Assembly: GCF_041080675.1 (NCBI RefSeq)
Contig: NZ_CP163520.1
Coordinates: forward strand, 6,787,501-6,851,500
Source of the DNA: Streptomyces sp. cg36
Lineage (GTDB): Bacteria; Actinomycetota; Actinomycetes; Streptomycetales; Streptomycetaceae
Direction of reading: 5' to 3'
Length of the DNA: 64,000 nucleotides
Shown: piece after piece, positions 48,602 to 49,924 of the stretch
How the letters are laid out: each line of letters starts with the position of its first letter
Position numbering within the stretch: position 1 is the first letter of the stretch
Position numbers and translations under genes: made by a program
The notes under the pieces: model-generated
What the model saw: the letters and a program-made list of their open reading frames with translations, nothing else
Told to the model about the DNA's origin: nothing
The model's database searches: none

Positions 48602-48907
48602 TCACCCTGGGCCGGGCGGCGGCATCGTCAGACGGCCCGCCCTGCGCTCCCCGTCGAGGACGCGCAGCGCCCGCGCCAGCGTCTCGGAGTGCAGCTCCGA
48701 CTCGCCGCGCAGATGCATGGTCGTCAGCGCGTCCCGCAGCGCCACCGCCCGCCCGACCAGGGCCTGTGCCGCCCGCAGCGCGCCGTAGGTGTCCCGGTGC
48801 CGGGCGGGGTTGACGCGGCCCAGCTTGTCCAGCGCGTCCAGATACGCGTCGATCAGCTCGCCCTCGGCGCGGGTCAGCGCGGGCAGCGGTGGCAGTTCGG
48901 GGATCAC
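48602..48907 (-). CDS. Small helical protein coupled to clpP
   Basis: A 101-residue protein that I do not recognise. It reads [39 protein letters not shown] and then two helix-rich stretches to the end. Start GTG at 48907; the clpP stop lies inside its first codons (GTGA overlap of four bases), so translation is coupled. No signal peptide or membrane segment. It may be an adaptor or assembly factor of the protease, judged only by coupling. Downstream lies a 27-bp palindrome. Confidence 0.7.
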
Positions 48908-49545
48908 CGGTACTGCCTCCTCGGCCCGGACAGCGGGGTCTTGCGGCTGGTCACGACGTGGTCGACCAGGCCGTAGGCGAGCGCCGCCGGGGCGTCCAGG
49001 ATGGTGTCCCGCTCGATGTCGGCGCCGATCCGCTCGGTGGACTGCCCGGTGTGCCGTGCCAGCAGCTCCGTCAGCAGTGCCCGGCCGCGCTGGAGTTCCC
49101 TCGCCTGGATCTCCAGATCGGAGGGCTGGCCGCGCAGCGGCTCCTCGATCGAGGGCTGGTGGACGAGCACCCGCGCGCCGGGGAGTGCGAGCCGCTTGCC
49201 CGGCGTGCCCGCGGCCAGCAGTACCGCGGCGGCCGAGGCGGCCTGCCCGATGCACACCGTCTCCACGTCGCAGGCGACGAACCGGATCGTGTCGTAGATG
49301 GCCGTCATCGCGGTGAGCGAGCCGCCGGGGGAGTTGATGTAGAGCGAGATGTCCCGGTCCGGGTCGGCGTGCTCCAGGTGCATGAACTGGGCCATCAGAT
49401 CGTTGGCGGAGGTGTCGTCGACGGGAGTACCGAGGATGACGATCCGCTCTTCGAGCAGCTTGCCGTAGGGGTCGAGGGTGCGGACCCCGGTGGAGGTGCG
49501 TTCGGAGAACTCGGGCAGGACGTGGCGGGCGGACGGGCCGTGCAT
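48904..49545 (-). CDS. ClpP-family serine protease
   Basis: A 213-residue ClpP peptidase. The catalytic triad is present: S104 in [12 protein letters not shown]129 in VLVHQPS, D180 in [28 protein letters not shown] is the substrate-strand region. The usual M after the Ser (GQAASMGA) is Ala here, and the N-terminal 25 residues differ from housekeeping ClpP1/P2, so this is an accessory paralog. Start ATG at 49545. Divergent from an orphan Phd/YefM antitoxin, followed by a coupled small gene. No Clp ATPase gene is next to it. Confidence 0.9.
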
Positions 49546-49608
49546 GGCGGACCCCTTCTCGTACGGATGGCCCTGCTGGGCGCATCGGTCGACTGCCTCT
49601 GTAAAAAA

Positions 49609-49625
49609 TGTACAGGACGTACAGG
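49609..49625. promoter_or_regulatory. TGTACA-type direct repeats in the clpP-antitoxin promoter
   Basis: TGTACAGG (49609-49616) and CGTACAGG (49618-49625) are repeats nine bases apart, preceded by the A-tract GTAAAAAA (49601-49608). YefM antitoxins in E. coli recognise palindromes with a TGTACA core; the site lies 18-34 bp before the antitoxin ATG. Control of both genes by the antitoxin is inferred. Confidence 0.55.
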
Positions 49626-49642
49626 CCGTTATGATGGGGAGC

Positions 49643-49924
49643 ATGGCCCATGAGATTCCGGTGACGCAAGCCCGAGCTGAGCTCGCCGAGCTGATCAACC
49701 GCGTGGTGTACGGCGGCGAGCGGGTCGTGCTGACCCGGCACGGCAAGCCGCTCGTCGCCCTGGTGTCCGCCGCTGACCTGGAGCGACTCGAAGGAGCGGC
49801 GCAGGCGGCCGAGGAGCAGGTGATCAGTACGGTGACCTCGGTGCGCCCGGCCGTGTCCGCTCCCGGCGAACGGAGCCGGTTCGGCATCGCCGCCGAGCAC
49901 CGGCAGCCGCCGATGGGGGGCTGA
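49643..49924 (+). CDS. Orphan Phd/YefM-family antitoxin
   Basis: A 93-residue antitoxin-like DNA-binding protein. The N-terminal Phd/YefM fold is clear: [46 protein letters not shown]. The C-terminal half (about 55-93), usually the toxin-binding part, is Pro/Ala-rich and ends in PPMGG. No toxin gene (RelE/YoeB/Doc) is adjacent; the next gene is ureA. So it may work as a stand-alone repressor of the divergent clpP. In-frame ATG codons at 49631 and 49634 are alternative starts. Confidence 0.88.

Follow-up and report, generated by a model that had tools for sequence, protein, structure and literature searches.

A conserved unit of an orphan Phd/YefM antitoxin gene, a GTAC-repeat element and an accessory clpP operon in Streptomyces

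We describe here a three-gene unit of Streptomyces in which an orphan antitoxin gene of the Phd/YefM family faces an operon encoding the accessory protease subunit ClpP5 and a small helical protein. Our preferred reading, built on sequence comparisons and given a probability of about one half, is that the antitoxin has been repurposed as the local repressor of a non-housekeeping, docking-type Clp subunit and a helical cofactor. The residues with which ClpP5 would cut have been lost many times while the rest is kept, so that a tuning of the Clp machine is a more probable role for the unit than the supply of another protease. The role of ClpP5 has barely been described although most of the sampled Streptomyces genomes keep it, and no description of the phd-clpP5-small gene unit was found in titles and abstract openings on Streptomyces clpP5, on ClpP and antitoxins, on inactive ClpP paralogues or on orphan YefM, a search with subscription journals mostly outside it. 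One Streptomyces paper uses the clpP5 number for another gene.

Results

Layout of the locus in Streptomyces sp. cg36

The window is a 64,000-nucleotide stretch of Streptomyces sp. cg36 (contig NZ_CP163520.1, positions 6,787,501 to 6,851,500), and all coordinates refer to it. On its reverse strand lies clpP5 (48904–49545), whose 213-residue product is a ClpP2-like accessory ClpP (PF00574, E 4e-67), followed as the second gene of the operon by that of the 101-residue small helical protein (48602–48907), which starts with GTG. The orphan phd gene (49643–49924, forward strand) encodes 93 residues of the Phd/YefM family (PF02604, E 6.5e-14; TIGR01552, E 1.4e-15) and diverges from clpP5 across a promoter region of 97 bp (49546–49642). 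Within this gap are the TGTACA/CGTACA repeats TGTACAGG (49609–49616) and CGTACAGG (49618–49625), which fall in a predicted operator, TGTAAAAAATGTACAGGACGTACAGG (49600–49625), with three GTAC/GTAA half-sites 9 bp apart, which forms the near-invariant core of the clpP5 promoter region. The hexamer TATGAT (49630–49635, forward strand), 7 nt before the phd ATG, may be the phd -10 element; a sigma-70 scan found no promoter. The coordinates and Pfam matches agree with the initial annotation, which had described the accessory ClpP, a coupled 101-residue protein and a divergent Phd/YefM gene around a 97-bp gap with these repeats, and the catalytic triad that it named, S104/H129/D180, is intact in the cg36 sequence. 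The coupling itself stands for cg36, where the GTG of the small gene overlaps the clpP5 stop codon by 4 bp, but that overlap occurs in only 1 of 95 orthologous loci.

The cg36 genome encodes two more ClpPs, adjoining each other, which we take for clpP1 and clpP2. By eye, the locus is flanked by a C40-peptidase-like gene on one side and urease genes on the other, as the annotation of a relative also has it, and the gene downstream of phd (50161) is that of the urease gamma subunit (annotated so beside a relative). We also note a match to the c-di-AMP riboswitch family RF00379 (48113–48274, reverse strand; 37.5 bits against a gathering score of 38), which lies downstream of the small gene and directly precedes the C40-peptidase-like gene of that strand.

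Conservation of the gene order

The three proteins were searched in 121 Streptomyces genomes, cg36 included, spread evenly over the genus, and the places of the matches were combined. All three are present in 95 of the 121, none in 20, and part of the unit in six (G010, G016, G061, G087, G106 and G107), counted among the ClpP matches listed, from which a diverged ClpP5 can escape; that of G010 came only from a separate search. Conservation of the gene order, proposed at the outset as a check, is thus borne out, and the loss of the arrangement in relatives that would have told against it is not seen at large. Wherever both sides share a contig, phd is divergent from clpP and the small gene (94 of 94 cases), and it lies less than 200 bp from clpP5 in 75 of these. 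The distance from the clpP5 stop to the start of the small gene is 7 nt in 62 of 95 loci, at most 15 nt in 92 and at most 37 nt in all 95. Presence of phd and of the small gene is strongly associated (both in 98 genomes, phd only in 1, small gene only in 2, neither in 20; Fisher p 1.3e-19, kinship ignored). The one genome with phd only, G010, has a run of N at the expected place of the small gene, and in G016 the phd and small gene matches are at different loci. Among 80 named loci fetched by way of the small protein, a phd match was found within the stretch fetched in 74 (one partial) and a clpP match in 78 (two partial).

Beyond the genus the unit is sparse. Of 296 genomes sampled across the class, 28 have a match to the small protein, and 22 of these are Streptomyces. 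A locus from another family (L218) has the whole set, with Phd 44% and the small protein 52% identical and an operator-like GTAC-N5-GTAC. Three genomes of another family (L215–L217) have the small gene, but the fetched stretches of about 10 kb contain neither a clpP nor a phd match, and phd has no match elsewhere either; one of their small proteins is identical to one from Planomonospora venezuelensis. In L217 the small gene overlaps what by eye is a GNAT-acetyltransferase-like gene, near a LysR-like regulator gene. In Streptomyces sp. KN37 (L232, NZ_CP139046.1) the locus, together with urease and biotin genes, sits on a replicon of 578 kb that is labelled a plasmid, and phd is separated from clpP by three genes, for an HTH protein, a RidA protein and a hypothetical protein.

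ClpP5 has often lost its triad and largely keeps a ClpP2-type pocket

A quick tree of 62 ClpP rows, 34 of them from this locus, places the locus proteins in one clade (SH-aLRT 99) separate from ClpP1–ClpP4, although the tree program flagged long branches in ClpP1 and ClpP4. The clade groups with ClpP2 and the gene-cluster copies described below (SH-aLRT 85), with one ClpP2 from another family standing apart. Counted by eye, the genomes without the trio have two or four ClpP matches (20 of 20) and those with it three or five (92 of 95). From the clade and these copy numbers together we identify the locus protein as ClpP5 of the S. lividans scheme, an accessory ClpP that accompanies clpP1P2 and, where present, clpP3P4. 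The S. lividans gene is described as monocistronic in the excerpt available of PMC9765437, whereas the sampled loci have a two-gene operon facing phd and frequently a broken triad.

The Ser-His-Asp triad is intact in 35 of the 95 orthologues and incomplete in 60, with Ser changed in 21, His in 52 and Asp in 15, and His129 ranks only 181st in conservation among 213 positions. On a quick tree of the locus proteins the intact and lost states require at least 11 changes, six of them forced by well-supported branches. The frames are nevertheless open, with median dN/dS of 0.37 in 24 pairs that have both lost the triad, 0.32 in 12 pairs in which both are intact and 0.38 in 11 pairs of one intact and one lost. 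The hydrophobic pocket with which ClpP2 docks Clp-ATPases also has a counterpart, S67/Y69/F89 in cg36, which corresponds in our own mapping to S94/Y96/Y116 of S. hawaiiensis ClpP2. Among the orthologues Y69 is found in 95 of 95, an aromatic residue (in one case His) at position 89 in 82 and S67 in 73; the aromatic at 89 is lost in 13 of the 60 triad-less proteins. In Streptomyces ClpP1P2 the serine of ClpP2 is dispensable and the ClpP2 pocket essential (PMC9765437, in the portion accessible). A subunit that docks its ATPase and leaves catalysis to a partner fits both the loss of the triad and the retention of the pocket.

ClpP5 can also be lost with the rest retained. In four loci (L086, L100, L163 and L179) clpP5 is deleted or a remnant while phd, the operator and the small gene remain open; in S. 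longwoodensis, one of the four, the clpP start region runs straight into the small gene. Other forms of decay are seen in L143 and L164, which have lost phd, the operator region and the front of clpP but have an open small frame, in L221, where all three genes are broken, and at the home locus of G016, which has phd and the operator alone.

An antitoxin with a C-terminal motif of its own and a possible small partner

Phd consists of a near-invariant N-terminal half, a variable linker and a conserved C-terminal motif. R11 and R32 are present in 95 of 95 sequences, and we take them to be the counterparts of R10 and R31 of YefM. These two residues of YefM are essential for DNA binding (PMC4803016, as far as our excerpt goes). 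A strict pattern of the C-terminal motif fits 79 of 95, the ten misses shown being FGI variants, and the motif recurs in the distant L218 and, in varied form, in loci without ClpP. One Phd pair reaches a dN/dS of 1.07. The conservation of the motif suggests that Phd has a binding partner other than a toxin.

The initial annotation had reported no toxin beside the antitoxin, and we agree: the next gene downstream in cg36 is the urease gamma gene, among the 95 loci, the 30 with a urease gamma match inside the sequence fetched all have it after phd in the same orientation, and no toxin is found beside phd. Where phd is displaced from clpP5, ten neighbouring genes were scanned and none is a toxin, three having no Pfam match at all. 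The initial annotation had named a toxin found elsewhere as the true partner as something that would refute its reading. A search of the cg36 genome for the YoeB, RelE/ParE and Fic families found no YoeB, and both RelE/ParE genes by eye adjoin an antitoxin-like gene of their own; two Fic genes are present. The cg36 protein thus resembles the antitoxins of YefM-YoeB and phd-doc type II systems in its family (PF02604, TIGR01552), its conserved basic residues and the TGTACA core of its operator, but differs in that no cognate toxin gene lies in its operon, in that it faces a protease operon, and in that its C-terminal half has a conserved motif of its own.

The small protein has no Pfam family up to E 1, and has 1501 related protein clusters and matches in 100 of the 121 Streptomyces genomes. 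AlphaFold2 predicts a helical bundle (mean pLDDT 81 in the better model and 68 in the first), for which a structure comparison gave no convincing match. Pairwise dN/dS of its gene is 0.04–0.22 among the four loci with gutted clpP5. Its median in triad-less pairs is 0.17, the lowest of the three genes, compared with 0.25 for Phd; the two have the same median, 0.21, in the 12 pairs with intact triads. The small protein is the best candidate for the putative partner of the Phd C-terminal motif.

The same observations permit a different view, in which Phd belongs with the small protein as its true partner: this protein would have replaced the toxin as ligand of the C-terminal motif and would tune repression as co- or anti-repressor, with ClpP5 a decaying passenger. 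The four gutted loci with their open small genes of low dN/dS, the persistence of the Phd motif there and in L218, and the low dN/dS of the small gene in triad-less pairs are all as this would predict. We nevertheless hold it to be rather doubtful, since a protein that 95 of the 121 genomes retain, at a median dN/dS of 0.3–0.4, does not behave as a neutral passenger. The small protein moreover occurs in the three genomes of another family where Phd has no match, its frame has outlived phd in L143 and L164, and it is no more constrained than Phd in triad-intact pairs.

A GTAC-repeat element that stays with clpP5

The element GTACGTCCTGTACATTTTTTACAG (clpP orientation) is found upstream of clpP5 in 95 of 95 loci, 24–96 bp ahead of the chosen clpP5 start. 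In an alignment of 105 rows, which includes some loci twice as well as the gene-cluster copies, eight core positions are set by the search pattern, the others are 84–100% conserved except one at 73%, and the flanks are not conserved. GTAC-N5-GTAC occurs within 260 bp upstream of clpP5 in all 95 loci, whereas 200 Markov shuffles gave on average 0.28 such loci and never more than 3 of the 95, and the operator 24-mer occurs once in the 9.0-Mb cg36 genome even with up to three mismatches. No exact match to the core is found in the 20 genomes without the trio, one of which has a one-mismatch match with a broken GTAC, whereas among 12 genomes that have the whole unit or a portion of it the same search gave a match at no more than one mismatch in nine; it missed G061 and G106, where just remnants of the small gene are left, and G036, whose trio comes with an operator variant. 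The likeness of the repeats to YefM operators, put forward in the initial annotation, holds only in part: they do belong to a near-invariant element with the TGTACA core, but the cores are 9 bp apart and not 12 as in YefM operators (PMC7730913, from the part at hand).

In 19 loci phd is displaced from clpP5, by gaps of 0.3–31 kb or onto another contig, and in 18 of these it has no such site within 260 bp upstream, the exception being a shared site 241 bp away; instead, a TAAGCT-like box is seen by eye just before the ATG. As the element remains with clpP, while 18 of the 19 displaced phd genes lack it upstream, it is primarily the operator of clpP. That a displaced phd loses it, together with the 9-bp spacing, is also what would be expected if the operator belonged to another regulator and phd were a mere neighbour. 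We consider this unlikely, because phd and the small gene co-occur nearly without exception, the exact core is missing from genomes without the trio, TGTACA is the known YefM core, and the core is found with Phd paralogues in the four gene-cluster copies and also, though with a different spacer, in L218.

Copies beside very large biosynthetic genes

Four genomes, G016, G058, G064 and G365 (L229, L230, L231 and L228), have a second phd and operator core before a clpP-small gene operon, behind which come very large genes. In three of these copies phd and clpP are separated by a thioesterase gene, identified by Pfam in G365 and by eye in G016 and G058. Pfam matches in G016 are PKS, PKS, NRPS and thioesterase and in G365 NRPS and thioesterase; the type of the G058 and G064 clusters was judged from gene size and order. 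Copies of clpP inside biosynthetic clusters are known self-resistance genes (PMC13386464 and PMC8182300, both in part), and it is possible that these four are clusters for ClpP-directed natural products. The cg36 copy differs in that it does not lie inside a biosynthetic cluster.

These copies bring up the idea that ClpP5 together with the small protein guards the cell from natural ClpP inhibitors, as a cassette for stress or self-protection in which ClpP5 would be a refractory or decoy docking subunit. The repeated change of its active site would fit a target under chemical attack, as does the presence of the set beside the biosynthetic genes. The ClpPs of the four clusters, however, group with ClpP2 and not with ClpP5, and all four keep the triad, so we regard such a role for ClpP5 as improbable.

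Discussion

In the mechanism that we favour, the toxin-free Phd would bind the GTAC-repeat operator before clpP5 and repress the clpP5-small gene operon, and also its own gene where the promoter is still shared. ClpP5 would act as a ClpP2-like ring subunit that docks Clp-ATPases in a mixed barrel, probably together with ClpP1; because its job would be docking, its own active site would be expendable and could be lost many times. The small helical protein would be a conserved effector or cofactor and may be the ligand of the Phd C-terminal motif. Removal of Phd, probably by proteolysis as for other antitoxins, would then allow ClpP5 and the small protein to change the composition or output of Clp. 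Several observations count against this: the spacing of the operator cores, three genomes of another family in which the small protein has neither Phd nor ClpP nearby, the open small frame of L143 and L164 where phd is gone, the triad still whole in 35 of 95 orthologues, the aromatic at position 89 lost in 13 of 60, and the operator variant of G036.

The feedback loop that the initial annotation proposed, with Phd repressing an active ClpP5 that degrades it, fails as a general mechanism and is very unlikely, because 60 of the 95 orthologues have lost the triad and four loci keep phd and the operator with clpP5 gutted, even though the triad is intact in cg36, phd and clpP5 face one operator and, in E. 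coli, co-expression of ClpP/ClpX shortens the half-life of a Streptomyces antitoxin, RelB2sca (PMC4989188, partial text). The ClpP2-type subunits are, besides, not the catalytic ones in Streptomyces ClpP1P2 (PMC9765437, again in excerpt). Such a loop could hold in triad-intact strains but cannot be the conserved function, and a ClpP that destroys its own repressor would give positive, not negative, feedback.

We also entertain, speculatively, a wider form of our preferred mechanism, in which toxin-antitoxin parts would have been assembled into a genus-wide control of Clp: the abundance of the orphan antitoxin would report proteolytic capacity and gate the operon of a docking-type, often non-proteolytic ClpP and its small helical regulator. 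The cell might in this way re-tune or brake ClpP1P2 when capacity is high, and clusters for ClpP inhibitors might have captured the switch for self-protection.

A dedicated regulator for an accessory clpP operon has a parallel in PopR/ClgR. PopR, however, is an activator that is degraded by ClpP1 and ClpP2 and has another binding site (PMC9765437 and PMC9775585, as excerpted), and the Phd family is unrelated to it.

If our reading is correct, a toxin-free antitoxin serves as the switch of a protease operon, and a ClpP paralogue has drifted from protease to ring subunit repeatedly in one genus, which provides natural replicates for studying ClpP function without an active site. It would also predict a new family of Clp-linked small proteins, and the phd-operator-clpP-small gene signature could be used to find ClpP-directed natural product clusters. 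ClpR of cyanobacteria and plastids is a catalytically dead ClpP subunit, and ClpP5 resembles it as a ClpP-fold subunit under selection without a full triad. The loss in ClpP5 is, unlike that in ClpR, recurrent and incomplete within one genus, and the cg36 protein, with its triad intact, is not of the ClpR type. We note finally that the sampled Streptomyces ClpP4s (L259, L261, L262 and L265) have Gly in place of the catalytic His (SGD, four of four) and that the ClpP1, ClpP2 and ClpP3 sampled with them keep SHD, the names ClpP1–ClpP4 here resting on gene pairs and tree position; it is as if ClpP3P4, by these residues, also split catalysis and docking between its two subunits.
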